Shown here: piece by piece, positions 34,155 to 50,633 of the stretch
How the letters are laid out: each line of letters starts with the position of its first letter
Position numbering within the stretch: the first letter of the stretch is position 1
Assembly: GCA_016938735.1 (NCBI GenBank)
Contig: JAFGUB010000009.1
Span: 62,001-126,000, forward strand
Length of the DNA: 64,000 nucleotides
Direction: 5' to 3'
Source: Campylobacterales bacterium
GTDB taxonomy: Bacteria > Campylobacterota > Campylobacteria > Campylobacterales > Sulfurimonadaceae
Notes under the pieces: model-generated
Told to the model about the DNA's origin: nothing
Databases searched by the model: none
Seen by the model: the letters and a program-made list of their open reading frames with translations, nothing else
Position numbers and translations under genes: made by a program

Positions 34155-37100
34155 TTAGTATAGTATCTTTTCAAGATGGTGGGAGGCTTCAAAATTTTTG
34201 AGCGCGCTGTTGTGCTTGCGGTCAAAAAAGTAGACCAGCGAAAAACCGGCCTGCATCAGTTCGTAGCTAAACATCTTCTCAAATGAGAAGGCTGCGGTTA
34301 GATCGATATGATCGCTCAGACGCACGCCGCTGCCGAAGGCAACTTTATAAGCGAGCCCTCCCGTTCGGTATCCCGGCTCGATGGCGCCGCTGAGCGGCAC
34401 TTCGGGTAAACTTAAAGGGTATCGCTCAATGTCTTCGACCAGATAGCCCTGAAAACCGGCGGATGCTTTGAGTTTCCAGTAGAGCGTAGAGGCGATGGTG
34501 TCGCCGGCATCGATGAGAAAGTTGCCCATCCAGAAATCCTGAGGGCTGAAGTAGCCTCCGTGCCCGTAGGTGAAGAGGTCGCTGTTGTATTTGTAGCTGT
34601 CATAAACCACAATCAAGCCGTAGTCGAGGTAGGATAGGGTTTCGTTGGCACTGTGGTAGATGGCCCCGAAGACAGTTTTGAACTCGCTATTTTCCATTAG
34701 ATTAAGGCCGTGAATCAATGGATAATACTCCAGATCTAGACTGAGCGTGACGAGCGAGTCGTAGCTGATACCGCCAAGAAAGCCCCGTTTGAGCACACGT
34801 CCCCAGTTGACCTCCAGTGCGCCTTGTTCTGCGCGCTCGCCGACAAAGGAGAGCATGGTGTCCTCAATGCTTTTTTGGGTGTATCCGACATGGATGCCAA
34901 AACCGTTTGATTGCAAACTCAGATCCATCAGCCAAAGCGGTTCGGGGGTAATTTTGGCGCCTAGAGGGGTGGAGCCAAACTCCAAAGTGAGCCAGGGCAG
35001 GGCGACACCGAGGGTCGGATAAAAGCCAATATCGCTCGCAAGATCGCTTCTTGGATCGTTTTGTCCCAGGCCGAAGTCGAGATAGCTACCGTTGCTATCG
35101 GCTAAAAAACCATCGTACATGTAAAGGGTTTGGGTGCGCAGATAGAAATGGGCATCACCGCCGTAGAGGTGTAGATCAAGCGGCAGGGCGTAAGACTCGA
35201 AAAAGTGACGCCCCTTCTCTCCTTCGCGCCGTTTGTAGTGCAGACCCGTCGAAAGCGCGTTGTGGCGGTATTGGCTCTTGAGGCTCTTATTGATTTTGGT
35301 CAGTAAGGCCTCGCGCTCGGCACTTGAGGGGAGGGCGGTTAAAAGCGCTTTAGCGCGTTCAGGTTGTTCGATGTCGCTGTAGAGCTGCGCGACCTTGAAG
35401 CGATCCTCTGTTCTTAGTTGATCTTCAATACGTACCAGCGCTTGTGTCGCAAGCTCGAACTGCTCGGTTTTGGAAGCGCTGAGGGCAAAAGCATAGGTGT
35501 CTTCGACATTTTGGCCGTAGCGCAGGTTGATGTCGGCAAATAGTTGTTGCGCCTCCTCAAACCGGTCGGTGTAGTAGGCACACCATGCATGCATGCGTTC
35601 GAGTCCCTGATCGTTGAGGGATTTGACGACACTGTTGCCATAGCGGTAACACAGTCCGAAGCGGCGGTTTTGATAGTAGCTAAAGAGACGTGAGCGTTCA
35701 TAATCCTGACGGAGCGTCGTGAGGGCTTGGCGCTGCTTGGACTCTGTGAAAATTTTGCCAAGACGCGTGAACTCTTTTTCAAAGAGGTTATCCTCCTCAA
35801 AATCCTTGAGCCGGTACAGATAGGTTTGCGCGAGTGCGAAGTTGTGGGGATCGTATTCGAGCGCTTTTTTATAGGCGCGGATCTGATCTTGATTCTGTCG
35901 GCTCTCCAGTGATTCGGCCAAAAGAACGTAGAGGCCGCTTTTGACTTCATTTGGCTCAAGTGCTTCGATGGCGGCCACGGCGGCATTGGTGTCGCGCCGC
36001 TCCATGGCGACCATCGCATAGCACTCAAGGTAGGGAGCACGCTCATAGGGCTCAAGTACGCCCACTCGTCCATAAAGTTCAAGTGCGTCGATGCAGCGGT
36101 GTTCGCGCGCGGCCAGCAGGGCCATGACGCTGAGGCCGTAGCGGTCTTGCGGCATTCGCTCCAGCAGACGCTCTGTATCGATTTTTGCCTCATCAAAGCG
36201 CTTTAGACGCAGCAGTATCTCGATGCTTTTGCGCATGAGTGCCAGATCGTTCGGATAGGACTCTTCGAGAAATCGGCTTACATGTAAGGCTTGATCGAAC
36301 GCACCTAGACGAAGCTTCTCATCGATTTTGGCCAAAGCTTGCAGTTTGTACGGATCGCTAACGCGCTCTTTGTCGCGCAGCCGCTCGTACCAAAAGATTG
36401 CGTTGGGGTAATTGAAGGTCTCAAGCGCCGCATAGAAGGCGACGGCGACGGCTTTTTGGCTTTGGGTGGCGCTGTAGAGGGTTTGGGCGAGAGTCATGGC
36501 GCTTAGATAGCGTTTTTGGCGATAGGCGGCATACATCTGACCTTCGATGCACTCATGCGTGTTTAAAACCGAGCAGGCGCGGTTAAACGCGCCCCATGAG
36601 CGGTCGGGATCGGTTTCGAGGTTGCTCCAGCCGATCTCCATCAGCTCGGCATGAATGATGGTGCGCTCAAGCTCGCGCGCGCGCGGTGCGTGCGGCAGCA
36701 GTGGCAAAAGAAGTTTTTTGGCCTGTTCATACGCTTTGAGCCGCAACTGCTCACCGGCTTTGGCAAGTGCGACGTCTTCAAAAAAACGGCGCGCTTTGGG
36801 CTCTGTTTCGAGATATGGGATCATCAGCGAAAGGGCAAGTGCGCTTTGAGCCTTTTGCTCAAGAGCGAGCGCCTGACGGTAGTCGATCTCGAAACGGTAG
36901 CGCTGTGCCTGCGGCGATTCGGAGGAGTCAAGCAAGGCGACGGCCAGCTCAAACTCGCCGCGATCGGCGGCGGCTTCGGCTTCGCTGAGCAACCCCTCGT
37001 TTTTGAGTGCGGAGAGTTTGGGAAAGACGGCGATATGGCGCTCTACAAGGGCTTTTGCTTCATCATGCTTGGAGCGTTTGAGCAGTGCGTAAAACTGTGT

Positions 37101-37649
37101 GACGATCAGGTCGTAGTAGAGCTTTTTGGAAGCTTTATCACTCCCTACATAAGGTTCGAGGTAGGCTCTGCCTTCATTATAGCGATGGCGTTTGAGTGCG
37201 ACGAGGGCTAAGGCGTAGGCGCTTTCAACTCTGGGATTTTTATCGTGATTGCGTTTGAAAATCTTCTCCGCCAAAGCGTAATCTCCCCGCTCATACGCTC
37301 CGTAGCCCGTATAAAAGGGGAAGGCGTCGCGCGGTTCGTTTGAGGCTGTGACGGCGGGGCGCAGGTCGATTATGGCGTAACCGATTTGGTGGCGCTCAAG
37401 CAGTTTGACCGTTTCGCGCAGGGCTTCGGTGGTGTTGGCGTCGTTACAGCGTAGGGCGACTTTTAAGCCCTCTTCGTACATGTAACATGAGAGTCCAAGT
37501 ACCCCATAGGCTTTTTGATGATGGGTGACGATATCTTTGTACTCCGGAGTCGTTTGAATCAGCTCGAAGGTGACCGAAACATTGTCATCGGCTCTGAGCA
37601 GATTAAGAGAGAGTAAAAAGATAAAGAGAAAAGGCATAGTAATCTTCAT
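34155..37649 (-). CDS. BcsC-like TPR and outer-membrane barrel protein
   Basis: About 1164 residues with a signal peptide (MKITMPFLFIFLLSLNLLRA; a start nine bases earlier is equally possible). From about 100 to 800 it is a series of helical TPR-like repeats (YERGDYALAEKIFKRNHDKN, FELAVALLDSSE, IDALELYGRVGVLEPYERAP). The last 330 residues are alternating beta strands ending in an aromatic residue, typical of an outer-membrane barrel (GSGVRLSDHIDLTAAFSFEK; final residue Tyr). This architecture matches BcsC, the cellulose export porin with a periplasmic TPR scaffold. Position after bcsA-bcsB-GH8 supports it. Sequence identity to BcsC is not obvious by eye. Confidence 0.72.
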   Translation of the reverse strand: MKITMPFLFIFLLSLNLLRADDNVSVTFELIQTTPEYKDIVTHHQKAYGVLGLSCYMYEEGLKVALRCNDANTTEALRETVKLLERHQIGYAIIDLRPAVTASNEPRDAFPFYTGYGAYERGDYALAEKIFKRNHDKNPRVESAYALALVALKRHRYNEGRAYLEPYVGSDKASKKLYYDLIVTQFYALLKRSKHDEAKALVERHIAVFPKLSALKNEGLLSEAEAAADRGEFELAVALLDSSESPQAQRYRFEIDYRQALALEQKAQSALALSLMIPYLETEPKARRFFEDVALAKAGEQLRLKAYEQAKKLLLPLLPHAPRARELERTIIHAELMEIGWSNLETDPDRSWGAFNRACSVLNTHECIEGQMYAAYRQKRYLSAMTLAQTLYSATQSQKAVAVAFYAALETFNYPNAIFWYERLRDKERVSDPYKLQALAKIDEKLRLGAFDQALHVSRFLEESYPNDLALMRKSIEILLRLKRFDEAKIDTERLLERMPQDRYGLSVMALLAAREHRCIDALELYGRVGVLEPYERAPYLECYAMVAMERRDTNAAVAAIEALEPNEVKSGLYVLLAESLESRQNQDQIRAYKKALEYDPHNFALAQTYLYRLKDFEEDNLFEKEFTRLGKIFTESKQRQALTTLRQDYERSRLFSYYQNRRFGLCYRYGNSVVKSLNDQGLERMHAWCAYYTDRFEEAQQLFADINLRYGQNVEDTYAFALSASKTEQFELATQALVRIEDQLRTEDRFKVAQLYSDIEQPERAKALLTALPSSAEREALLTKINKSLKSQYRHNALSTGLHYKRREGEKGRHFFESYALPLDLHLYGGDAHFYLRTQTLYMYDGFLADSNGSYLDFGLGQNDPRSDLASDIGFYPTLGVALPWLTLEFGSTPLGAKITPEPLWLMDLSLQSNGFGIHVGYTQKSIEDTMLSFVGERAEQGALEVNWGRVLKRGFLGGISYDSLVTLSLDLEYYPLIHGLNLMENSEFKTVFGAIYHSANETLSYLDYGLIVVYDSYKYNSDLFTYGHGGYFSPQDFWMGNFLIDAGDTIASTLYWKLKASAGFQGYLVEDIERYPLSLPEVPLSGAIEPGYRTGGLAYKVAFGSGVRLSDHIDLTAAFSFEKMFSYELMQAGFSLVYFFDRKHNSALKNFEASHHLEKILY
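36278..36287. repeat. TTACATGTAA palindrome inside the BcsC-like gene
   Basis: Perfect copy read as Leu-His-Val; near copies lie at 35115-35124 and 37476-37485. Confidence 0.9.
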
Positions 37650-38637
37650 GCGCTCCATCCATCCTTTCAGAGAGTTCCGCTTCAAAGCGTGCGGTATCCA
37701 TACCCAAAAAACGCCCGACTGCCGCATAAACTGCCAGATGGGCACCGGAGAGATCATACAGCGATAAGCTCCCTTTGTTAAGCTCCGCACGCCCGAGCGT
37801 CGCGTAGCGCATCATCTCAAGATAGCGCCGATACGGCTCCAGCAGTTTACGTTTGCGCTCATCGCTGAGGTCGCTGCGCACAATCATTAAAGGTACCCGT
37901 ATTGCGTCGTATCCAAAATAAGCGGCGTCAGGATCAAGGCTAAAGTGCTGCGTAGAACGATCAAGCAGTACCCAGTCGGAGTGCAGACCAAGCGGTGAAA
38001 AACGGGCCTCTTCGAGGAGTTTTAAAGCGCTACCATGTAAGGCATTCCAGATCGGATCTCCGTCGATGCGGGAGAGATAGCTAAAGACTTCCAGCAGCAG
38101 ATAAGAGGGGTTGAGCTTTAGTGTCTGCTCGGTTTCAAAGCCCTCTATGCCGGGCAGCAAAACACTCAACGTACCCGCCTTGCGCACCAGATGCTGCTTG
38201 ATCGATGAGAGCAGCGTCTGCGCTTCTTTGGCATATGTATGATTGCCTGTACGCTGTGACATCAGCAGCAGCGCATAAGCAATCCACAGATCGCCGTCGG
38301 TGGCGTTGTTGTGTGAGAGCATCTGCCACTGGCCTTGTGGCGTCTCTCCCCATTTCCAGCCCACAAGCCCCTGAGCATTATGGTGCATATTGGAGCGATA
38401 CCACTCAAAGATGCGCTCAAAGGTTTGCGTGTCGTCATGGCGATAGGCAAAATAGAGGGCGTATCCGATTCCCTCAGAATGGGTGACGGCACTGTTATGC
38501 CGATCGATCACCCGTCCGTCATTTTGGATGTAGCGGCTTTTGTAGGTGTTCCATGCGTTCTCTTGTCGGGGTGCGGCGGCGCAAGCGCCGAGCGCAAAGA
38601 GCATCAGTATTGCCAGGAATCCGAATTTAGGCCACAT
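37603..38637 (-). CDS. bcsZ: Glycoside hydrolase family 8 cellulase (BcsZ-like)
   Basis: 344-residue periplasmic endoglucanase, perhaps a lipoprotein (LFALGACAAA). VTHSEGIGYALYFAY places a glutamate at residue 55 and NNATDGDLWIAYAL an aspartate at 116, the same positions as the catalytic acid and an active-site aspartate of E. coli BcsZ as I recall them. YFGYDAIRVPLMIVRSDLS is the third conserved region. BcsZ trims nascent cellulose chains and is required for proper export. It overlaps bcsB by 11 bases and the BcsC-like gene by 47. Its presence argues that the neighbouring synthase makes a beta-1,4-glucan. Confidence 0.9.
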   Translation of the reverse strand: MWPKFGFLAILMLFALGACAAAPRQENAWNTYKSRYIQNDGRVIDRHNSAVTHSEGIGYALYFAYRHDDTQTFERIFEWYRSNMHHNAQGLVGWKWGETPQGQWQMLSHNNATDGDLWIAYALLLMSQRTGNHTYAKEAQTLLSSIKQHLVRKAGTLSVLLPGIEGFETEQTLKLNPSYLLLEVFSYLSRIDGDPIWNALHGSALKLLEEARFSPLGLHSDWVLLDRSTQHFSLDPDAAYFGYDAIRVPLMIVRSDLSDERKRKLLEPYRRYLEMMRYATLGRAELNKGSLSLYDLSGAHLAVYAAVGRFLGMDTARFEAELSERMDGAHEDYYAFSLYLFTLS

Positions 38638-41488
38638 GCTTATGGTGTCTTTGCTTGAAGCCGATCAGGAGTTTGCGTAGCAGCCAAGTCGTCAATATAA
38701 GCACAATAAAGAGCACGATCATATAGCGTGCGGGGTTGGCACTCACGATCAGGCTGATACGATCAAACCAGTTCATGGAGGTGAGGATGTACTTTTGTTT
38801 GATATCAAATGCGACCCCGTCTTGGTCGATAGGATCAAAAAGCAGGGTGTCGCCTTGAATGAGATGACGATTAGAGTAATCAAAGAGCGTCGAAATACCC
38901 TGATTGAGACTGTTTGGCGATTCTGCGGCGAACATCAGATAGGTCTTGTCACTCTGTTTGGGAGAGCGGTAGAGCTGCATCAGCAGCGCCGAATCGAGAC
39001 GGTTGGTTTCGTGCATCCGCTGATAGAAGCGGTGTTTGATCGTACGGTCATCGTCGAGGATGTTTTTGTGCTCGACAAAGCGGCTGACAAAGGGGTAGGG
39101 CTTGTGCATCGCGCTGCCTTCAAAGTTGACGGGAGCGTCGCTGCTGAGGCTTTGCAAGGGGGCGTCGTGGATGGAGCCAAAGGCGATCAGGTGGCGTTCG
39201 TCGTCGATCTGCTCGCTTTTGGAGGTGATGGCCGCATAAAAAGGAAACGATCCCATCTCTTGCGCCAGAAAGAAGATGAAGTTCATGCTTGCCGCAACCG
39301 TTTGGGGGTGCGTATTGGCTAAAAAGAACTGCGTCTGCTGCAGATCGGGGTAGATCGAGTAGGGGTAGGTCGAGGTCGAAACCAGCTGTAAATAGGGCAT
39401 CTCAATCCATCGCTTCGATTCGGGGAGGATGAAATAGGAGTCGTCTAGGATCATGGCCACCAGATTTTCGGTATTGTGGATGGCGCAGTGTCCCTTTTTT
39501 TGCGGTATGAGCGAGAAGTCGAAGAGGAGTTTGTTGTATCCTTTACTAACCAGATAGGCGGGCAGATAGTCGTTTTCGATCCAGCTAAAGAGTTCACCCG
39601 CGCTAAGGCTGATATCGCCTGATTCGCTCGCCTTCATGATGTCGATCTGTTTGGCGAAACGGTTGTTGAGGTAAATATTGACGACGGAGTCTTTATTGAC
39701 CGTATTGGGAAAAACGTAGCGCAGATGGGTTTTGATGCGGTCTTTATCATCAAAATAGTGGTCGGGATAGACTTTGAAATTGAGTGACACTTTGGGAGGG
39801 TACCACCCTTTGAGCACCGTGGTTTCGTAGCCGAGCTCTTTGAAGTAGATCTTTTCGTTGATAGGGATATAGGATTTGGCGCTGTAGGCTTTGGCCGGTT
39901 CTGGAATCTCGACCGAAGCGATGTCAAGCCCTTGTCTTCGATAGAGCGATAGGTCTTGTTTATAGAGTGCGTGCAGCGCGTGGACTATGCGCTCCTCTTC
40001 CACAGGCGTGATCACGACAATTGCTTTGTCAGGGGCATAGGGGTTTTTGATGACGTTGATATCGTGGGCGATCTTTTCGTCGATAAAGAGCGACTCGCCG
40101 ATGCCCCGATCACGGTAGAGGCTGGAGAGTCGGTACAAAGAGGCTGCTGCTTCGTCGGTATAGGCGGAGGTGAAGAGGTAGAACTGATCGATCATCACGT
40201 TTGCTGCGCTATCGCCTCCGATGACTGCTTCGCCAGAGAGGTTGGCATATTCGGCGGATGCGTTTCGATGGGCCGTCGCCACAGGTGCTCCGTCGATATA
40301 GATGCGGTTGAGCGCGCTTTGGCGATGGTGCAGACTCACGATGACGTGATGCCAGCCGGGCGTCAATTTTTTCTCTCCCAGTGAGAGTTCTTCCTGGGCG
40401 GTGCCGATGAGCAGTCGGTTGGCGTGCAGACCGATGCGGTAGCCCGAGGCAAAGGAGAAGAGGGTGCCGCTTTGCTCGTTGGCGACATTGATCCAAAAGG
40501 CGACTGTGGCGCTGTTGTGTAGATTAAACGGAAGCGATTGAAGTGAAATCGCCCCCCCCTGCAGCAGCAGGCTCTCTCCACTAAAGGCATCTTTGGCGCT
40601 GTAAGCAAGACCATGAGGCGTTGCATCGATGCGGATGTTGGGGTCATTTAAGAGCCAGGGGGTGACGCTACGGTCGTTAAAAAAGAGGGATAAGAGCGGA
40701 TTGCCAAAGAGCATGGCACCTGGGGCGAAATCGTTCAGCAAGGTTTTGATGCGGTCGCGTTTACCGATGATGACGTTGTGTGTGTCGCGGCGTAGCGTAT
40801 TGGAAGCGTCGATAGGCAAAATTCGGTACTTGAGGTGGTTTGCCGTAGCGGCGGTAAAGAGCAGATAACGACGCAGCTCCTCATCGCTTTGATCGGAGAG
40901 GACGTAGTTAATCGTCGAGACCTCGTATTGTTTGTCGTCCAGTAGATGCGTGACAATAGAACGTACCTCTTCAGGTATCGGTTTGATCTTTACATGAAAC
41001 TCAACATAGCTCTGTTCCAAATGGACGTCGCTCCAGAGCTCCGAGCTTGAGCCGTCCTCGCACTCGTGGGTGTAGTGCTGGATAAACTCGAGTGTCAACG
41101 TGTTGTGGGTTTGGAAGAGTTCGGGAGTGATCTCAAATTTGACCCCTGTTTTGGTGTTGTCGAAGACACGAAACTGCGCCACGACCGCATCGTTGAACAG
41201 AACCAAACCTGCCGAGTGGTCTTTCATCAATAAGATGGAGGAGTCGTATTTGATGTAGCCTTTCGCACCGAGCACCTCCCAGTTGCCGGGGATCGGTAGG
41301 CTAATCGAATGCATACCGTCGGTGCCTCGGATTCTTTGAACCTCTATCGTCGGATCGACATAGTTGAGGGCAATGCGCACCAATTGCGTTCCGTCTCCGA
41401 GCGATTGGGTTGTGATCGGATCTTTTTGGACCGCTGGTGAGGCCAAAAGCATGGTGGCGCTCCAGATCAGCCACATGAGCTTCAACAT
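38627..41488 (-). CDS. bcsB: BcsB-type cellulose synthase subunit with a LamG-like insert
   Basis: 953-residue periplasmic protein anchored by one C-terminal helix (YMIVLFIVLILTTWLLRKLL). The N-terminal part has BcsB features: a carbohydrate-binding-like domain with FNDAVVAQFRVFDNTKTG and THECEDGSSSELWSDVHLEQ (the WSDV region is a BcsB hallmark). Between about 330 and 470 lies an inserted concanavalin/LamG-like domain (ATVAFWINVANEQSGTLFSF, PGWHHVIVSLHHRQSALNRI, YIDGAPVATAH, VMIDQFYLF). The BcsB second half resumes at YFKELGYETTVLKGWYPPK. BcsB guides the polymer from BcsA through the periplasm. It is ten bases after bcsA. Confidence 0.85.
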   Translation of the reverse strand: MLKLMWLIWSATMLLASPAVQKDPITTQSLGDGTQLVRIALNYVDPTIEVQRIRGTDGMHSISLPIPGNWEVLGAKGYIKYDSSILLMKDHSAGLVLFNDAVVAQFRVFDNTKTGVKFEITPELFQTHNTLTLEFIQHYTHECEDGSSSELWSDVHLEQSYVEFHVKIKPIPEEVRSIVTHLLDDKQYEVSTINYVLSDQSDEELRRYLLFTAATANHLKYRILPIDASNTLRRDTHNVIIGKRDRIKTLLNDFAPGAMLFGNPLLSLFFNDRSVTPWLLNDPNIRIDATPHGLAYSAKDAFSGESLLLQGGAISLQSLPFNLHNSATVAFWINVANEQSGTLFSFASGYRIGLHANRLLIGTAQEELSLGEKKLTPGWHHVIVSLHHRQSALNRIYIDGAPVATAHRNASAEYANLSGEAVIGGDSAANVMIDQFYLFTSAYTDEAAASLYRLSSLYRDRGIGESLFIDEKIAHDINVIKNPYAPDKAIVVITPVEEERIVHALHALYKQDLSLYRRQGLDIASVEIPEPAKAYSAKSYIPINEKIYFKELGYETTVLKGWYPPKVSLNFKVYPDHYFDDKDRIKTHLRYVFPNTVNKDSVVNIYLNNRFAKQIDIMKASESGDISLSAGELFSWIENDYLPAYLVSKGYNKLLFDFSLIPQKKGHCAIHNTENLVAMILDDSYFILPESKRWIEMPYLQLVSTSTYPYSIYPDLQQTQFFLANTHPQTVAASMNFIFFLAQEMGSFPFYAAITSKSEQIDDERHLIAFGSIHDAPLQSLSSDAPVNFEGSAMHKPYPFVSRFVEHKNILDDDRTIKHRFYQRMHETNRLDSALLMQLYRSPKQSDKTYLMFAAESPNSLNQGISTLFDYSNRHLIQGDTLLFDPIDQDGVAFDIKQKYILTSMNWFDRISLIVSANPARYMIVLFIVLILTTWLLRKLLIGFKQRHHKHVA

Positions 41489-41498
41489 ATTAACTCCT

Positions 41499-43715
41499 TC
41501 ATTTTGAATAGGATAAACGATTTTTGAAATAGAGAAACGTTACTAAAAAGGCCTCTTTAAACAGAGTGTTTTTAAAACTTTGGCGCACGATATACGCAAA
41601 GCTTTGAATCGGGTTCATCACACGGTGGCTTTCGTCAAACTCTCGCCATACGGTATCGTTAGCGTAGATGATCTGAATGATTTTTTGACGTACATGTAAC
41701 TGCTCATCAAGATTTTTGAGTATAAATACAAGATTTTTCCCCCATCCAAAGGCACGCAGAAAATCGACCGGAGCACGAAAAGATTTACCGTCGATATCGC
41801 CTAGCTCGATCTCGATAGAGCGTGCGGTTGAGAGTTTGGTCTCAATTTGATCATTCAGATGTGTCGGGGTCGCGTTGAGTCCTCCTTCACCGATATCGGT
41901 GATGTTGGCCTCGATCGCTTCTCCATCGGCAAATATCGTGCATTGGCGCTTCAGCGGAACCCGAATATATTTTCGTACTTCCCCTTTTTCACTGGTGACG
42001 GCAATGGCGGCAATGAGCAGCAAAAAGTTGAGCAGATTCCACATGGCCGTCATGATGACGACGGCCTGATCTTCGGGATAAGTGATCCAGCGGTAAAGGG
42101 CTGCTACAAAACCGAATGAGACAAGAATAAAGAGCAATACAAAGGGAATGGCAAGCAGACTGACATGGGTTTTGGTCAAGTCTTCTCCCTTGGGAGTAAC
42201 TTTGAAGGTGGGATTGCGGGGATTCAAAACGGTTTGCACGATGGCGGGCAGCGTAAAAAAGGATAGTACGGTTTCATAAAGTTCGGAGAAAAACGGGTTG
42301 CGTACTTTGGCGTAAAGAAAGTAAGACATCATGATCGCCATGAGCATATGCGGGACGACGTAGGCGAGCATCTCCGTCTCATTGGCGTTGTAGATGCGCA
42401 GGCCAAAAAAGAGAAACATCAGCGGCGCAAGATAAAAGACGACCCGCGAATAGGCAAAGAACCAAAAAAAGCTGGCGCTAAGATAGCTGAGCTTCTGATG
42501 CCACTTGAGTTGTTTTGAGAGGAAAGGATTTTTAAGCAAAAAAATCTGTACCATCCCCTGCGTCCAGCGGATACGCTGAATGATGAGCGAGCCGAAACTC
42601 TCCGCCTGAAGCCCGCGCACCATCGGCTCACTGATGTAGGCGCTTTTGTAACCTCGGTCGTGCAGTTTGATCGCGGTTTCGGCATCTTCGGTAATGGTCT
42701 CCCCCGCGATACCGCCGAGTTCGTCAATGTATTTGCGTCTTAGCAGTGCTGCAGAGCCACAAAAGAAGGAGCTTTCCCAAAAGTCGTGCCCTTGTTGAAT
42801 AAAGCGGTAAAACATATCGTTTTCGCTGATGGAGGTGCCGAACATCCGCAGATTACGTTCGATCGGATCGGGGTTGTAAAAAGCGTGAGGGGTTTGAACG
42901 AGAAACATCTTTTCATCTTTCAAAAACCAGCCGACGCTCTGTTGTAAAAAGTGCTTTGCCGGAACGTGATCGCAGTCGAGGATCAGAATGAGATCACCAT
43001 GAACCGAGGAGAGTGCGGAGTTGAGATTGCCCGCTTTGGCGTGTTCATTTTTGGCACGTGTGAGGTAGACAGCGCCGCTGCGTCTACAAAAATCCTGCAA
43101 GTAGGCACGCCGATCGCGCGCTTCTTGCGCTGCTTCAGGATTGGTTGCGTTGCATTTTTGATCGGTGCCGCCGTCGTCGCAGACATAGACCTTAAGTTTG
43201 TGGTGCGGGTATTCCATGGCCAGAGCGGCAAGGGTAGTGTTTTCGATGATGTTAAATGGTTCATTATAGGTCGGAATCAATACATCCACGATGGGCAGCT
43301 CATCTTCGTTATAAGCGTTTAGATTGATACTTTGGCGTTTAAGCAGATGCAAAGAGGTGAAGATGCCCAGCAGATAGATGATGACGGCAACCCCTTCGGC
43401 GAGATAGAGCATCACCGCACCGATGTAATCGAAAAAGCCCTCGTACGTCAAAGAGGCAAAGGTGCGCCAGTACATGTAGCGCAGTACGACTACCACGGCA
43501 AGGATTTTAATCAGCAGTTCGATGAATGGGGGGAGCCGCTTGAATTGTAGCGCGATCAGCAAAAACGCAGAAGCGCCGTATCCGATGACAAATTGCGTCT
43601 CAATACGGTAGTGGGCGCTGATGAGCATGTAAAAGGCGAACAACACCAGCAAGGTTCCAAGCCAGCGTGCTGCGCGGTTGTCGGTCACTGCCTCAAGTGT
43701 CGGGACGAAACTCAT
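41499..43715 (-). CDS. bcsA: Cellulose synthase catalytic subunit, PilZ-regulated
   Basis: 738-residue membrane glycosyltransferase (GT2). Several helices precede the catalytic domain, which shows the full cellulose synthase set: VCDDGG, LDCDH (D-x-D), FFCGSAALLRR, TITEDAETA (T-E-D) and QRIRWTQG (Q-x-x-R-W). The closing PilZ domain binds c-di-GMP: RKYIR gives R-x-x-x-R and DIGEGG the D/N-x-S-x-x-G motif, with glycine in place of serine. Synthesis of a beta-1,4-glucan, activated by c-di-GMP, is the expected function. It overlaps the upstream SPOR gene by 4 bases and carries near copies of the palindrome at 41690-41699 and 43470-43479. Confidence 0.95.
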   Translation of the reverse strand: MSFVPTLEAVTDNRAARWLGTLLVLFAFYMLISAHYRIETQFVIGYGASAFLLIALQFKRLPPFIELLIKILAVVVVLRYMYWRTFASLTYEGFFDYIGAVMLYLAEGVAVIIYLLGIFTSLHLLKRQSINLNAYNEDELPIVDVLIPTYNEPFNIIENTTLAALAMEYPHHKLKVYVCDDGGTDQKCNATNPEAAQEARDRRAYLQDFCRRSGAVYLTRAKNEHAKAGNLNSALSSVHGDLILILDCDHVPAKHFLQQSVGWFLKDEKMFLVQTPHAFYNPDPIERNLRMFGTSISENDMFYRFIQQGHDFWESSFFCGSAALLRRKYIDELGGIAGETITEDAETAIKLHDRGYKSAYISEPMVRGLQAESFGSLIIQRIRWTQGMVQIFLLKNPFLSKQLKWHQKLSYLSASFFWFFAYSRVVFYLAPLMFLFFGLRIYNANETEMLAYVVPHMLMAIMMSYFLYAKVRNPFFSELYETVLSFFTLPAIVQTVLNPRNPTFKVTPKGEDLTKTHVSLLAIPFVLLFILVSFGFVAALYRWITYPEDQAVVIMTAMWNLLNFLLLIAAIAVTSEKGEVRKYIRVPLKRQCTIFADGEAIEANITDIGEGGLNATPTHLNDQIETKLSTARSIEIELGDIDGKSFRAPVDFLRAFGWGKNLVFILKNLDEQLHVRQKIIQIIYANDTVWREFDESHRVMNPIQSFAYIVRQSFKNTLFKEAFLVTFLYFKNRLSYSK

Positions 43716-44407
43716 CGGCTTTGGTTCGGATAGTAGTAGTCAAGTGAAGGATATTCCATTTGCTCTGAAGAGACAGAGGCACCGGTACTGCTACGCTGCT
43801 TAATCACTTCCGACCAGAAAGCATCGTTATCGTTGATAGCCGGTGCGGAAGAGCGGGAGGAGGAGCGTACAGGCGGCGCTGTGCGCGAAGGCTGCGTGAT
43901 GGGTTCAGTCTCCTCTTGCTCTTCGATATAGAGCGGAGCGAAGCACTTTTGGCACTCCTCCCACAGCGAACGTTCCGTTGTAGCGGCTTTTGGTGCCGTT
44001 TTGACCGGTGGAGTAGGTTGGTTTAGATGCGGTTGGGTTGTCTCAGAAAGTGTTCGCGGCGTTGCGGGTGTTGTAGTGGCAGGATAAACAACACTTGAGG
44101 GGTCAAGATCACATTTGCGCACGAAGGCGTCGCGATGGCTTTGGTGTATCTGCTCAAGTGTACCAAGTGCGTCACGATAAGAGGGAAAATCTCCGACCCT
44201 AAGCGTGTAATGACTGCCTCGTTTTTCGATGCGTGCCGTGTCGTAGGTGTGCAAAACGTTCTCGGTTTTGGCATCGATTGCACGTGTGTCGAAGAGGTTG
44301 TAGGTTTGCACCTGAATACAGTACTGCGCTTGTAGCGAGCCATGCAGTGACAATGCGATTACGATGCGTACCGCAGATGAAGTAGGGTCTATTCGCATAA
44401 TCTTCAA
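43712..44407 (-). CDS. SPOR-like secreted protein, first gene of the bcs operon
   Basis: About 231 residues from a TTG at 44407 (AAAGG upstream at a good distance); ATG at 44398 is the alternative, and a GTG at 44443 would put the palindrome inside the coding region. A signal peptide (SSAVRIVIALSLHGSLQA) is followed by a SPOR-like domain: YCIQVQTYNLFDTRAIDA, YTLRVGDFPSYRDALGTLEQ, AFVRKCDLD. The rest is low complexity with proline and serine. The SPOR fold binds denuded peptidoglycan in cell division proteins. Its relation to cellulose secretion is unclear. The facing gene at 44650 begins with the same type of domain. Confidence 0.72.
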   Translation of the reverse strand: MKIMRIDPTSSAVRIVIALSLHGSLQAQYCIQVQTYNLFDTRAIDAKTENVLHTYDTARIEKRGSHYTLRVGDFPSYRDALGTLEQIHQSHRDAFVRKCDLDPSSVVYPATTTPATPRTLSETTQPHLNQPTPPVKTAPKAATTERSLWEECQKCFAPLYIEEQEETEPITQPSRTAPPVRSSSRSSAPAINDNDAFWSEVIKQRSSTGASVSSEQMEYPSLDYYYPNQSR

Positions 44408-44417
44408 GAGGGCGCCT

Positions 44418-44427
44418 TTACATGTAA
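44418..44427. repeat. TTACATGTAA palindrome in the bcs operon leader
   Basis: Perfect copy; on the minus strand it runs directly into AAAGG, the likely ribosome-binding site of the SPOR gene. Confidence 0.9.
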
Positions 44428-44503
44428 GATTCAAACGTGCCACTATACATTAATTACAGCTTCGAGCGGTTATGATTTCCGTCAATTGGCTTCTAATAAT
44501 TAG

Positions 44504-44649: not shown

Positions 44650-46530
44650 GTGTCAGTTTTGGTTAAAAATAGAGCAATAGCAATATGCGTGTTATCTTTT
44701 GGAATTTCGATACCTCTATGGGCTGAGTATTGTATCGCAGTGGCATCGATCGAGCAGCAAAGCGTAGAGCGCCAAAAGCAAGAGCTTGAGGTGTTGCTTG
44801 CATCGCTGACCGCTCCGGCGATGCTGGTTCGCGAAGGCAGAGTGATGGTCACCACCGGACGCTTTGCAACCCAGGCTCAGGCGGAACGTCTGCTACCTTT
44901 GACGCAGACGCGCTATCCTGAGGCGTTTGTACTCTCTTGTGATGATGCGGTTGCCTACAAATCGGATCAGGGGCTCCAAAGCGCTACTGTTCCTAAACGC
45001 TCCTTGAGGCCCTTATATGCCATCAAAATGCTCGAGCTTTCAATGCAAGAGGCGCAAAGGCGCGCTAGCGAGATCGAGTCGCACATGGCAAACGTTCCTT
45101 ATGCTTCCAAGCAGACGCATCAAGATCGTTTGTATCTGCTTGGAGGACGTTTTGAACAGCGTGACGATGCCGAACTGGTCTTGACGCTGATACAGCGGCG
45201 CTATCCGCAAGCCGTTATCGTGACCATCGAGCCTTCGAGTGTGCAACCGCCCGTTGCTCCTTTGATAGGCGGCGAGCGGCAGACGGTGGCGGCGAAACAA
45301 ACGTCAAATCAGCCTGAGGATCGGCCGGGCGTGCAAGAAAAATCTCTTACATGTAATGGTTTGATTTCTGTTGTACTGCGAAGCGACACTCTAGAGGGAG
45401 AACAGCTCTTTGAAGGGATGGCGTCGCAACAGCGGATATTGGCAAGTGCTCAAGAAGAGCCGTTTTACGGTTTTTATCTGCGTTCTAATACCGCATGGGA
45501 TACCCTCAATAATGATGCCGCTTACGACATCAGAGTAGAGTGGGAGCTTTTTGATCAGGGCTACTATCATGCCAGAAAGTTGCAGGAGAAGGAGCGGCTG
45601 GATCAGCAGATCGCGCTGTATCGGATGCTCGATCAGGTGCGTAAGCTCTCGCAGCAAAGCGTTTTGGAGGGTATTTCACGCTATCAAAACGCCGTAGAAG
45701 CGTATGAACTGATTGAGCGCCTGAAGATTCAAGAGTCCTATCTCAACCGGATGCAGGCGCGCTATGAGGCGAGAATGGCGACGCAGTTTGAGTATGACAT
45801 GCTACGCTTTGAGATCGACAAAGAGAAGGAGATGCTGCGCCGTTTTCATCATCTCAAGTTGGTGAAAATGCCTCAGGCGCTCTGGCAGCTCGTCAATCAG
45901 ATCGAATATGTGCGCTTGCGTCAAGCCGATCGTATCGTCGCTCAACGCGCGGCGCAAGGAAAGGATCAAGAGGAGATTGAGACGATGGCCCAACGAGCGC
46001 AGATGCACTCGGATTGGAGCGACAAGCTGCAACTGAGCCTCTATGCGGGTCAGCGAAAAATGTATCTCTCACAGCACCAAAGTATCGTCGGGGTCGAGGC
46101 AAAGATCCCGTTGACATTCGGAGATGCGACCGATGAACGCGAACGTACCTATTATACGATGATGGCGCATCAAGTCTCAATGCAGACGCGCCTTGAAGAG
46201 GAGAAGTTGCGTGAAATGACCTCTCGTTTTGCTTATGCGCAGCAGCGTCTTATGACGCTTCGTAACGAGATCGAGCGCTTGGAGCGCCATGCGGTAACGC
46301 TAGAACGGGTGCATGAGCTTGGATACGGGGAGTTGGTGCAGGTAGGAAGCGAAGAGCTCTATCGTCTGCGTTTGAGCCTGCATACCAAACACACCGCGAT
46401 GCAAAAAGAGCGTTTGGCGCTCTATGCCCTTTTGGTCGAGATTCTTTTTACGGCGCAAGCCGACTCGATCAGCGACCTGCTTGAATATGCTCTACCCGAT
46501 TACGCGGACCATCGGGCGGAGCGTAGGTAG
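44650..46530 (+). CDS. SPOR-like domains fused to a TolC-like outer-membrane channel
   Basis: 626 residues; GTG at 44650 or TTG at 44659 (AAGGTG lies 8 bases before the latter). The signal peptide (AIAICVLSFGISIPLWA) is followed by two SPOR-like segments: EYCIAVASIEQQ... VMVTTGRFATQAQAERLLPL and LYLLGGRFEQRDDAELVLTL. From about 230 it is coiled coil with short beta stretches (FYGFYLRSNTAWDTLNNDA, KLQLSLYAGQRKMYLSQHQS), the layout of TolC-type channels. I infer an outer-membrane partner for the Alg44-like HlyD adaptor. The 3' end overlaps the convergent Alg8-like gene by 62 bases. A perfect palindrome is at 45347. Confidence 0.62.
   Translation: MSVLVKNRAIAICVLSFGISIPLWAEYCIAVASIEQQSVERQKQELEVLLASLTAPAMLVREGRVMVTTGRFATQAQAERLLPLTQTRYPEAFVLSCDDAVAYKSDQGLQSATVPKRSLRPLYAIKMLELSMQEAQRRASEIESHMANVPYASKQTHQDRLYLLGGRFEQRDDAELVLTLIQRRYPQAVIVTIEPSSVQPPVAPLIGGERQTVAAKQTSNQPEDRPGVQEKSLTCNGLISVVLRSDTLEGEQLFEGMASQQRILASAQEEPFYGFYLRSNTAWDTLNNDAAYDIRVEWELFDQGYYHARKLQEKERLDQQIALYRMLDQVRKLSQQSVLEGISRYQNAVEAYELIERLKIQESYLNRMQARYEARMATQFEYDMLRFEIDKEKEMLRRFHHLKLVKMPQALWQLVNQIEYVRLRQADRIVAQRAAQGKDQEEIETMAQRAQMHSDWSDKLQLSLYAGQRKMYLSQHQSIVGVEAKIPLTFGDATDERERTYYTMMAHQVSMQTRLEEEKLREMTSRFAYAQQRLMTLRNEIERLERHAVTLERVHELGYGELVQVGSEELYRLRLSLHTKHTAMQKERLALYALLVEILFTAQADSISDLLEYALPDYADHRAERR
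45347..45356. repeat. TTACATGTAA palindrome inside the SPOR-TolC gene
   Basis: Perfect copy read as Leu-Thr-Cys-Asn. Confidence 0.9.
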
Positions 46531-49138
46531 CGTCAAGGGGGGTGTAGGTGATGGCATCCCACCCGGAGGCCTCATAGCGGTGGTGGCGGATATGGCTGAC
46601 AAGGTTGTCGTGGCTGTAGCCGCCGTGAAAATTGATATCGACGTTGTCGAGTTCCAAACGCTCCAGACGATTGCCCGCGCTGCTCCATTGAAGGGTGATG
46701 TGGCGGATGTTTTTGATCGTGCTGTCGCGGAGGATGGAATCGAAGGTGCGTGCGAAGCGCAGATAGCCGTTGCCGCTCTTGCCTTTGTTCCATGCACCGT
46801 TGATGTAGAGTTTTTCAAGCCGAGCATTAGTGACGAACTCCAAGGCAATGGGATGGCGTCCCGCGTTTAGGATCTTCAGACGCTCCAAGGTTGCGTCGGC
46901 GGCGATCTCCAGACGGATCATATCGACGGCGTAATTGGGATGGCTGTTTTCGTATCGGAAGGTTTCGGCCTGTATGTCGCCCTGCGGCACCGCCTGGGTG
47001 ATCGTAAAATCGCTTACATGTACCCCCTGAATCGGTTGTAAAGCGATCAGTTCGCTCTGATGGGCCGGAAAATCAAGGCTTAAGTGCCGATCGAGTTTAA
47101 GCAGTTGTACTCTGGGGTCGTAGTGGGTGGCGCGTACGATTTGCTGTCTTAGATAGGGGTAGGTTTTGTTCCAGCGCTGCGCGCCGATCGAGTGTAAAAA
47201 GGCCTCATCGTTGGGCGTGCGGATCAAGATCCAGTCTGGCTTTTGCGTCACTTCGGTCTCCAGTAGGCTCTCGTCAAAGTGGGCGTCTTGCTTGAGATGT
47301 GCCAGCTTCTTACCCATCGTTCCTTTGACGTAAAGGGCTGCAACCGCTTCGGTCGTGAGATGGGAGCGCAGCAGGGTTGCTTCGCTACCGGCTCCGCTAA
47401 GGTGCACGTAGTCGGTTTGGATTAGTACCGGATGGTGCAGATCCAGCGTGCCTTTGGGGAGCGTGATGTCGCATTGCTTGACGCCGTCGCACTGCCGTAT
47501 AAGCAGGTTGATCGCCGTGGCATCGTCTAGGCCGTCATCGGGAATAACCCCGAAATCGGCGGCATCATAGCGCTGCAATGCGGCGGTTTGATGTTTGATG
47601 ACATCCGTATCGGGTAGGGCAAAGGCCTCATGGGTAAAGGCCATCACAAACAAAAAGAGCAGATAGCTGGCGCCCATCATGATGTCGGGCATTCGGTTGA
47701 AGAGCGGATGGGCCAGTTTGGCGACCGAATCGTCGCTCACTTGAGCCTGTCCCCCTTTGGACCACTTCTGATCGGAGAGATGGAAAAAGGCTTTGATCTT
47801 TACCAATGAGCCGATCCACTGCCCATAGAGCATGAGCGGTAACGAGCGCCACGAGACGATATGGCCGTTGTAGGCGATCGAGGCAACTTGAAGCGTGCGC
47901 ACAAAAAGTACCCATGCAACGTAAAAAAGAAAGTAGTAAATCGATTTGACCAAGCCAAGCACGATGGCTCCGGTTATGCCCACCAAAGAGGTCCACATGG
48001 AGATGCGCTGATCAAAGATGGCCCACCAGATAAAAAAACCGGTCTTGCGCGGCCCCAGCGCGAGTGCGCGGTTGTTGTTGCGTAGGGTGTTGCCGTACCA
48101 GCGGTAGGGGAGTGAGCGGCTCAGCTCTAAAAAATCGGCGTCGCGGCTCTCAAGCGAATAGCAGAGGGTATCAGGCAGATAGCGCATATTCCACCCCTCT
48201 TTGAGCAGGTTGTACCAGGTTGTTTTGTCATCACCCATCAAAAAACGGAACTTACCGTGCATGACGGTCGTAATGATGTCGTTTTCGAGTCGGCGAATGA
48301 ACTCATCATCAATGATGAGCGTCGTGCGGTAGGCTGAGAGACGGCCGGTAAGGGTGAGCACCTTTTTAGAGAGGGAGTGCGACTGAAAGAGCAGATGGCG
48401 CTGTCCGAATTTGAGGTTGAACCAATCTTTGTACCAGTTGGAGTTGGTTTTGATAAAGGCCGCTTCGTTGGTGGTGACGGCACCGAGCTTGGGGTCGATG
48501 GCGAAATGGGGCAGCAGCTTTTGAAAAAATCCCTTCTCCAGATAGCTGTCCCCGTCCATGAAAAAAGTGACGCTGTGTTCGTCTAAATCGTCTCGCAAAT
48601 AGCGTCTGGAGATGGCGCGGATGGCGTGGCCCATAGCGATACGTTTACCCTCTTTTTGGGCTTGCAGCACCAGTTCGACCCGATCGCGTACATGGTGTGC
48701 GTTGTAAAGCTGCATGATCAGCTGATCTTCGCGTTCGCTGCCGGAGGTGGCGACGATGATGGTGGCATGCGAGGGGATCGTGAGCAGCTCGTTAAAGATC
48801 GATTTGAAGGTTTCGATCGTGACCCAGGACTCCTCTTTATAAGAGGGGATGACAAAGTAGAGGTGTTTGGGGTAGCGCTGTTCGTCACCTAGCCGATCGA
48901 TACGGCGCAGCAAGGCGGGATAGGCAATCAAAGCGTAGATCATGGCACGCAGCGTATTGAGCACCAACCAGCCATAACGCCAAAAAGCGAAAGCACCGAT
49001 GATGATGATCGTTTCGTTTTTAACATAGTAGACGTAAGGCCAGATGATATACAAAAGGCCAAAAGAGAAGGAGAGGTAGATAATAGTAGGTTCAATAGCG
49101 CTTTTAAGGCCGTCTCGTCGTCCGTAGCGAAGGCGCAT
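46469..49138 (-). CDS. Alg8-like glycosyltransferase fused to a pectate-lyase-type beta-helix
   Basis: 889 residues. Two N-terminal transmembrane segments precede a GT2 domain with FVIPSYKEESWVT, DGD (195-197, D-x-D), GDDKTTWYNLL (302-312) and LPYRWYGN (about 343-350). The layout and the GDDK-W motif resemble Alg8, the alginate polymerase, more than BcsA. Further helices follow to about residue 502. Then begins a second domain (about 520-889): DAADFGVIPDDGLDDATAIN and ITLPKGTL are the opening of Pectate_lyase_3 right-handed beta-helices, followed by rung-like repeats. The epimerase motif DPHD of AlgG is not seen. The start lies two bases after the Alg44-like stop. The polymer is unknown. Confidence 0.82.
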   Translation of the reverse strand: MRLRYGRRDGLKSAIEPTIIYLSFSFGLLYIIWPYVYYVKNETIIIIGAFAFWRYGWLVLNTLRAMIYALIAYPALLRRIDRLGDEQRYPKHLYFVIPSYKEESWVTIETFKSIFNELLTIPSHATIIVATSGSEREDQLIMQLYNAHHVRDRVELVLQAQKEGKRIAMGHAIRAISRRYLRDDLDEHSVTFFMDGDSYLEKGFFQKLLPHFAIDPKLGAVTTNEAAFIKTNSNWYKDWFNLKFGQRHLLFQSHSLSKKVLTLTGRLSAYRTTLIIDDEFIRRLENDIITTVMHGKFRFLMGDDKTTWYNLLKEGWNMRYLPDTLCYSLESRDADFLELSRSLPYRWYGNTLRNNNRALALGPRKTGFFIWWAIFDQRISMWTSLVGITGAIVLGLVKSIYYFLFYVAWVLFVRTLQVASIAYNGHIVSWRSLPLMLYGQWIGSLVKIKAFFHLSDQKWSKGGQAQVSDDSVAKLAHPLFNRMPDIMMGASYLLFLFVMAFTHEAFALPDTDVIKHQTAALQRYDAADFGVIPDDGLDDATAINLLIRQCDGVKQCDITLPKGTLDLHHPVLIQTDYVHLSGAGSEATLLRSHLTTEAVAALYVKGTMGKKLAHLKQDAHFDESLLETEVTQKPDWILIRTPNDEAFLHSIGAQRWNKTYPYLRQQIVRATHYDPRVQLLKLDRHLSLDFPAHQSELIALQPIQGVHVSDFTITQAVPQGDIQAETFRYENSHPNYAVDMIRLEIAADATLERLKILNAGRHPIALEFVTNARLEKLYINGAWNKGKSGNGYLRFARTFDSILRDSTIKNIRHITLQWSSAGNRLERLELDNVDINFHGGYSHDNLVSHIRHHRYEASGWDAITYTPLDATYAPPDGPRNRVEHIQAGR

Positions 49139-49140
49139 GG

Positions 49141-50520
49141 CTATCCAAACAGCGGTCGGCTAAACCAAACCTTGACGCGTTCGTTGAGTTGTCCGTCATG
49201 CAACGGAGCGCTAAAGCGGAGTTTGACCGTAATCTCTTTGAGACTCACCTCGTCTGAGAGCATGGATTGCGTGTTGATGGCAAGGTTGCCGATCGCTTCG
49301 ACCGTGGCATCAAAGGTCTGATCCAGGCTTGGGACGTAGATGCGCGCGGCCATTCCACTGTAGATATCGACCGTCTCCTCTTTGAGCAGTTTGCAGACGA
49401 CGAAGGGGGCATTTTTAGTCTGTAGCACCATCACTTCGTCGCTAGAGCCTACGTAATTACCGATACTCGACTTGATTGCATAGACTTTTCCCGAGACGGG
49501 GGCAAAAACGCGTCGATACCCAAGCTCGTTGATCAGTTCGGCGCGGCGGAGTTCTAGTTCCGTTTTGAGTGCGAGCAGGGCTTTGGATTGACTCTCTCCT
49601 CCTCCGTCTCTTTGCCGTTCTTGCTCCAGACGAATATCGGCTTTAAGTAGGGCATCTTGGGCGCGGTCTAACTCGGCTTGGGTGAGAAGGCGTTGATCAA
49701 CAAGCATTTTGGTTTGACGCAGACGTTTATCAAGCGTGTTGCGCTCTTGTTGCAGCATCGCGCGGAGCGCATCACTAGAGGGCTCTGGTTGGGGTTGGGC
49801 GGGACCGAGTAAGAGTAGCTTCTGATCGATAATTTCGATCTTATCGACGGTCATGCGTTCATCCAACTCAAAAAGCAGTGCGCCTTCGGAGACGCTATCA
49901 CCGATGCTTACATGTAGATCACTCATTTTGCCCGAGACGGCGGGGGAGATCTTGATGAAATTGCCTGAAATGACACCGATGGAGCGGTAGACATACTGGG
50001 TATTGTAGTAGATGGTGGTGAGGATCAGGAAAACAAAGAGGGTGCCGACGATCGTGTAAAGGCGCACTCTTTTTTGAAACGCACGCTCCAAAATACCCGC
50101 TTCCGCGTCGCTGAGCATCACGGACTCTTTGACCGGAGTCTCTACGATCGGTTCGTTGTAGATGCCCAATATACCGTCGGTATTTTGCAGTCGTCCTTCG
50201 ATGGAGAGCTCAAGGTATTCGCGCAGGACTTTGCGGTTGGACTCTCCAAGAGAGACAAATTCGAAACCGGCGATATCGTTTCGGCTGTTTTTAAACTGAA
50301 GTTTGACGGGAATCTCCAGACGCGCTTCGGTAAACTGTAGCAGCAGCGAGGACTCTACAATCTCATCGTGAGTGTAGGTTGTCTCTACCCCTTTGATCCC
50401 CACCCCGGTCATTGACCAGTCGTTGGTGGTGTATAGGGTTTGACCTAGACGGATGTAAAGCGGAATCGTGACGCGGTGAGATCTACGCATCTGATTGGCT
50501 TCATGGGTGATACCGGGCAA
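49141..50520 (-). CDS. Alg44-like protein: PilZ domain plus HlyD-type adaptor
   Basis: 459 residues from a TTG at 50520, chosen because AAAGGAG lies 5 bases upstream; an in-frame ATG at 50565 has no ribosome-binding site. A PilZ domain opens it, with RRSHR (R-x-x-x-R) and NDWSMTGVG (D-x-S-x-x-G), both intact for c-di-GMP binding. One transmembrane helix follows (IVGTLFVFLILTTIYY). The remainder is a HlyD/membrane-fusion part with a lipoyl-like half motif, a coiled coil and PVSGKVYAIKSSIGNYVGS. This is the architecture of Alg44, the c-di-GMP receptor of alginate polymerisation. It is directly coupled to the Alg8-like gene. Confidence 0.88.
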   Translation of the reverse strand: MPGITHEANQMRRSHRVTIPLYIRLGQTLYTTNDWSMTGVGIKGVETTYTHDEIVESSLLLQFTEARLEIPVKLQFKNSRNDIAGFEFVSLGESNRKVLREYLELSIEGRLQNTDGILGIYNEPIVETPVKESVMLSDAEAGILERAFQKRVRLYTIVGTLFVFLILTTIYYNTQYVYRSIGVISGNFIKISPAVSGKMSDLHVSIGDSVSEGALLFELDERMTVDKIEIIDQKLLLLGPAQPQPEPSSDALRAMLQQERNTLDKRLRQTKMLVDQRLLTQAELDRAQDALLKADIRLEQERQRDGGGESQSKALLALKTELELRRAELINELGYRRVFAPVSGKVYAIKSSIGNYVGSSDEVMVLQTKNAPFVVCKLLKEETVDIYSGMAARIYVPSLDQTFDATVEAIGNLAINTQSMLSDEVSLKEITVKLRFSAPLHDGQLNERVKVWFSRPLFG

Positions 50521-50633
50521 CGGTGCTCCTTTATGACGGGAATGCTCGACAAACGGACACGACATTGTAGCACGTGCTATGGCGATTAAAGAGCAGAATC
50601 TACCGACCCCCGTGAGGGAGAGGGGGAAGCGGA

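Follow-up and report, generated by a model that had tools for sequence, protein, structure and literature searches.

We identified, in a 64,000-nucleotide stretch of DNA from a Campylobacterales bacterium (hereafter the window), an Alg8-type GT2 synthase joined in a single polypeptide to a predicted C-terminal beta-helix. The reading frame occupies positions 46469 to 49138 of the minus strand (889 aa with an ATG start in the ORF listing of the window; the plus-strand reading of the same interval contains many stops), and the gene is present as a single copy in its own genome (2.85 Mb, 99.7% complete). The best explanation, to which we assign a probability of about 0.6, is that it encodes the catalytic subunit of a c-di-GMP-controlled exopolysaccharide synthase of the Alg8/Alg44 type that carries its own periplasmic uronate-type lyase or C5-epimerase at the exit, the catalysis being predicted. 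An earlier note, made from the sequence alone, had proposed the fusion of an Alg8-like polymerase to a beta-helix, and this is confirmed by the ORF, Pfam, an AlphaFold2 model, and the recurrence of the architecture in homologues.

The synthase part, residues 1 to 507 (47618..49138, minus strand), was recognized by Pfam, the helices of the AlphaFold2 model, hydropathy averaged over 22 homologues, a motif table, and Foldseek. It is followed by a junction or linker, residues 508 to 520 (47579..47617, minus strand), modeled with low confidence by AlphaFold2, and by the right-handed parallel beta-helix, residues 521 to 889 plus the stop codon (46469..47578, minus strand), for which AlphaFold2, Foldseek, and conservation are the evidence. 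Pfam matches the part to Glyco_tranf_2_3 (residues 90 to 350; E = 5e-29), and the Pfam GT2 domains together span residues 90 to 416. Both GT2 motifs given in the earlier note, DGD at residues 195 to 197 and GDDKTTW at 302 to 308, are present in the ORF. The full-length AlphaFold2 model, computed with 22 homologues, has a pLDDT of 86.3, and Foldseek searches with the synthase part recovered hyaluronan, cellulose, and chitin synthases. The DGD, GDDK, and RWxGNxxR motifs of Alg8 occur in all fused members, except for RWxGN in one of them (L050). DGD, GDDK, and RW(F/Y)GNxxR are common to the fused synthases and to the AlgD-linked Alg8s, whereas BcsA has QRIRW instead; an identity as a cellulose synthase was rejected on two grounds, the absence of QxxRW from the GT part and its large distance from BcsA in the tree.

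Hydropathy averaged over the 22 homologues and the AlphaFold2 model place five membrane helices at approximately residues 13 to 36 (TM1), 43 to 62 (TM2), 383 to 400 (TM3), 401 to 423 (TM4), and 486 to 507 (TM5). The cytoplasmic GT2 domain (residues ~90 to 365, with DGD195-197, GDDK302-305, and RWYGN346-350) lies between TM2 and TM3, and an amphipathic or gating segment (residues ~432 to 452) lies between TM4 and TM5. The earlier note had left the membrane side of the beta-helix open; transmembrane prediction, with five helices and positive-inside flanks, points to the periplasm, since a cytoplasmic GT domain followed through an odd number of helices would put the C-terminus on that side. The unfused AlgD-linked Alg8s (e.g., L024) appear to share the last hydrophobic segment after the same region, which suggests that the beta-helix joined a C-terminus that was in the periplasm before the fusion.

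The C-terminal domain is predicted to be a right-handed parallel beta-helix of the pectate lyase-like fold. The earlier note had placed its start near residue 520 and its end at residue 889, and AlphaFold2 predicts a helix over the whole C-terminus; modeled alone, the domain reaches a pLDDT of 94.4 and a pTM of 0.93, and the structure prediction that the note had named as a possible refutation thus came out in its favor. By sequence, the Pfam family Pect-lyase_RHGA_epim (PF12708) matches residues 527 to 591 below the threshold (17.2 bits against a cutoff of 27), with scores of 25.0 in L022 and 29.1 in a Vibrio relative, and no curated lyase or epimerase family of Pfam matches the window helix above threshold. 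Foldseek searches with the helix recovered polysaccharide lyases, phage depolymerases, AlgE4/AlgE6, and an alginate epimerase/lyase, together with GH28 and GH110, the solved structures among these being only about 10% identical. A single-protein sequence search of the solved structures found nothing, and a profile search reached no further than the first part of beta-helix lyases and comparable enzymes.

The helix is under purifying selection (dN/dS = 0.105 against a sister genome). Across 22 sequences, it is less conserved overall than the GT part (mean pairwise identity, 40% versus 59%), with 30 invariant columns. Eighteen of these fall within 66 residues (781 to 846; hypergeometric P = 6e-8, for a stretch chosen after the columns had been seen). 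This cluster is mostly polar, its invariant residues including N784, K785, Y792, R812, H813, Q817, W818, N823, D834, N836, H838, H843, and N845, in the pattern NKG..G..Y, RH...QW.....N, VD.N.HGG..H.N, which the strand map of the model places on successive rungs. Judged by its sequence, the helix is not AlgG-like. The absence of the AlgG motif DPHD, read in the earlier note for the window, holds for all 22 helices. An hhalign comparison with four alphaproteobacterial AlgG-like proteins gave a probability of 0.1%, i.e., no relation, although these proteins were assigned by operon position and lack a clear DPHD, which makes this a weaker test than one against Pseudomonas AlgG. With neither profile similarity to AlgG-like helices nor DPHD, orthology to AlgG was rejected.

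A scan of named genome records recovered 27 loci, at 21 of which there is a full-length fused homologue (42 to 82% identity); the other matches are partial, at least some of them on account of contig ends. Of 151 genomes from the family to which the window belongs, 8 (the window included) carry the fusion at full length with no internal stop; several of the 21 named records are the same genomes as those among these 8. This recurrence rules out a split gene, as well as the joining of two genes by a sequencing error that the earlier note had considered. The fused proteins are found in Campylobacterota (Sulfurimonas, Sulfuricurvum, and others), Gammaproteobacteria (among them the isolate Pseudoalteromonas sp. 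G4), and a metagenome-assembled genome (MAG) of Desulfobulbaceae; the fusion is thus a conserved architecture across three taxonomic groups. Searches with the helix only retrieved it almost exclusively in fused form, with eight fused proteins and one free protein in the family sample and four fused proteins among four matches in 369 genomes of the class of Pseudoalteromonas. A close paralogue of the fused synthase (G005 C206/C210; L027 and L029:1-1231), read across two contig ends, seems to stop right after TM5 without a helix and is followed by a PL7 lipoprotein, suggesting that some members can do without the domain. Searches of open-licence papers brought up no report of Alg8 fused to a beta-helix or of a GT fused to a pectate lyase.

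Directly upstream of the synthase gene lies that of an Alg44-like copolymerase (49141..50565, minus strand), recognized by Pfam and a 17-sequence alignment, with a PilZ domain (RxxxR at residues 27 to 31 and DWSMTG at 49 to 54), one membrane helix, and a HlyD-type periplasmic arm. In 17 loci, R27, R31, S51, and G54 of the PilZ domain are invariant, and the RxxxR and (D/N)xSxxG motifs for c-di-GMP are intact, suggesting that the synthase is controlled by c-di-GMP through its PilZ-HlyD partner. Convergent with the fused gene is the gene for a secreted protein (44650..46530, plus strand), a candidate TolC-like outer-membrane factor on the basis of a family alignment and neighbor tables. Pfam OEP is found in 2 of the 17 members of its family (best E = 1.9e-4), the window member having no Pfam match, and a profile search of the solved structures with this family returned no TolC, only weak chance-like matches. 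The pairing of this gene with the fused synthase is conserved among relatives; the two genes overlap at their 3' ends by 62 bases (46469-46530), and convergent overlaps recur in many relatives, with 3' overlaps of about 15 to 83 bases in relatives from three taxonomic groups. We regard the protein as a possible, weakly supported TolC-like exit through the outer membrane.

A cellulose operon (34155..44443, minus strand) adjoins the fused locus in the window's sub-clade only. It encodes, all on the minus strand, a SPOR protein (43712-44443), BcsA (41499-43715), BcsB (38627-41488), BcsZ/GH8 (37603-38637), and BcsC (34155-37790). Its BcsB contains a Laminin_G_3/concanavalin-type lectin domain (residues 312 to 446; E = 4e-10 in Pfam), which is unusual for a cellulose synthase subunit. 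On the other side of the locus, ORFs at 50634-53944 (minus strand) resemble, by eye, an RND efflux pump split between two genes that overlap (531 and 572 aa), and the split is also seen in the sister genome L016.

Several stand-alone relatives of the helix bear on its likely substrate. The invariant residues, except for H843, are kept in relatives from Thermus and Vibrio, which align with the window at 30 to 32% identity. The Vibrio pelagius gene is flanked by genes for a PL5 alginate lyase (PF05426; E = 1.7e-80), heparinase II/III, the glucuronate isomerase uxaC, a KdgM-type porin, and kdgR. On a Thermus thermophilus plasmid, a protein annotated as hypothetical (L085:7857-8999) bears the signature of the helix family and has no synthase in its vicinity. 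At another locus (L028), a secreted stand-alone helix is followed by two PL7 lipoproteins, and in one sub-clade, a PL7 (PF08787) alginate-lyase lipoprotein directly follows the fused or related gene, most such lipoproteins carrying the RxEL, QIH, and Y(F/Y)KAG motifs. A search of the window's own genome found no PL7 genes; thus, a uronan as the polymer, which we consider probable, is extrapolated from sister clades and one Vibrio cluster.

Whether that polymer could be ordinary alginate, with the helix as a divergent AlgG, was weighed against the company kept by the unfused synthases. These are encoded in algD-alg8-alg44 loci in Campylobacterota and in algD-alg8-alg44-algA loci in Rhizobium, Loktanella, Tateyamaria, and Jannaschia. 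In the campylobacterotal loci of this type (L097-L102 and L024), there is no adjacent recognizable AlgG, and in most of them, large secreted proteins of about 860 to 890 aa come next. The relatedness to Alg8 and Alg44 speaks for alginate, as does the position of the nearest unfused relatives in algD-alg8-alg44-algA operons of the canonical type, where a beta-helix protein is encoded separately. However, a single branch of the synthase tree separates the 22 fused from the 12 AlgD-linked synthases (support, 93/100; branch length, 2.32, with the long branches advising caution in reading it), and the two sets differ in their diagnostic motifs (MGDDK and LPYRWYGNTLR in the fused versus TGDDK and LMxRW(F/Y)GN in the AlgD-linked proteins). 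The best match to an AlgD query in the window's own genome is only 29% identical and of the UDP-glucose 6-dehydrogenase type, adjoining ORFs that read from their sequence as GDP-mannose/GDP-fucose genes. The lack of AlgD suggests that the polymer is probably not ordinary alginate; together with a Desulfobulbaceae genome (G153) in which an AlgD-linked Alg8 stands at a locus different from that of the fused gene, it also suggests that the fused synthases are independent of GDP-mannuronate, with UDP-GlcA as a possible sugar donor. Given further the missing DPHD and the negative hhalign comparison, plain alginate is disfavored, and its combination with a divergent AlgG seems hardly probable at all.

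Regarding the helix itself, the suggestion of the earlier note that a modifying, cleaving, or guiding domain stands at the synthase exit is compatible with all of the evidence and is supported by it, and the readings divide over which of these functions applies. A noncatalytic guide or binding domain, shielding the nascent polymer and passing it to the HlyD arm and the outer-membrane factor, would suit a covalent attachment at the exit and a helix devoid of DPHD, and it has a precedent in AlgG, the scaffold role of which is separable from epimerization (PMC3815931). We nevertheless consider it unlikely, because the invariant set is rich in Lys, Tyr, Arg, His, and Asp and is also found in secreted stand-alone proteins without an adjacent synthase, namely, those of the Thermus plasmid, the Vibrio uronate cluster, and L028 with its two PL7 lyases. 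That the helix is instead a glycoside hydrolase trimming a neutral or mixed polymer, as BcsZ does for cellulose, would accord with the presence of GH28 and GH110 of the beta-helix superfamily among the structural matches, with BcsZ in the adjacent operon, and with an own genome lacking both AlgD and PL7. GH28-type hydrolases have several acidic residues, whereas the cluster holds a single invariant Asp (D834), and both the uronate cluster of the Vibrio relative and the PL7-linked clade point to a uronan; a hydrolase is therefore decidedly unlikely, and we infer a lyase or epimerase in its place. Finally, signal peptidase I might cut after TM5, between AFA and LP, making the fusion a device for cotranslational delivery only and leaving the helix free in the periplasm. 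Good AxA sites are present in the window and its near relatives, and 12 of the 22 homologues pass the -3/-1 rule, but the other 10 fail it (with K, Y, D, M, or V at -1 or an unsuited residue at -3), and the apparently identical last helix of unfused AlgD-linked Alg8s (e.g., L024) argues against TM5 being a recycled signal peptide; such cleavage is very improbable.

If the helix is a lyase or epimerase, the system might operate as follows. The cytoplasmic GT2 domain would polymerize a nucleotide sugar and the membrane helices would pass the chain outward, while the neighboring PilZ-HlyD protein would sense c-di-GMP and form the periplasmic adaptor. The chain would emerge beside the beta-helix, tethered by about 13 residues, the groove of which would act on it as a uronate-type lyase or C5-epimerase, thereby setting its length, clearing stalled chains, or altering the residue type. 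It would then leave along the HlyD arm and probably through a TolC-like outer-membrane factor.

The Alg8/Alg44 pair, tripartite export, and the fusion of GTs to modifying domains are each of an already known kind. The Alg8-Alg44 alginate polymerase of Pseudomonas and Azotobacter shares the DGD, GDDK, and RW(F/Y)GNxxR motifs, a similar membrane layout, and a PilZ-HlyD partner; the window synthase differs in its fusion to a beta-helix, its lack of a link to AlgD, and its separate branch in the tree. The mannuronan C5-epimerase AlgG is another right-handed beta-helix of the periplasm found in association with an Alg8-type synthase, but it is a separate protein in the alginate systems, and the window helix lacks its DPHD. 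Exopolysaccharide operons offer precedents in GT-deacetylase fusions of the PgaB type and in BcsAB and BcsZC fusions (PMC7112194); in these, the partners are either a GT and a deacetylase or Bcs subunits only, and none joins Alg8 to a beta-helix. The tripartite cellulose secretion system XcsAB-TolC proposed in cyanobacteria (PMC12430437) combines a synthase, a HlyD-like adaptor, and a TolC-like channel, as the window system may also do; unlike the window system, it has no fused periplasmic enzyme, its PilZ domain is on the synthase, and its polymer is cellulose. The RbmB polysaccharide lyase of Vibrio cholerae and phage capsule depolymerases are beta-helix enzymes that act on bacterial exopolysaccharides and were recovered by Foldseek, with a weak sequence match at the helix start; they are free or phage borne, about 10% identical to the window helix, and not joined to a synthase. 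It is a tentative possibility that a uronan other than alginate (e.g., glucuronan), a synthase that epimerizes or cuts its own product by means of a covalently attached beta-helix, and a HlyD/TolC-type conduit in place of AlgK/AlgE together make up a hitherto undescribed exopolysaccharide system.

The fusion hard-wires a putative enzyme to a synthase and thus offers one polypeptide with one adaptor for testing synthesis-coupled modification. It further points to an Alg8-like synthase family working with a donor other than GDP-mannuronate, and to polymer-acting beta-helices as a new family. In several bacteria of marine and subsurface origin, a new chain would probably encounter, on leaving the cell interior, the enzyme that modifies or cuts it.
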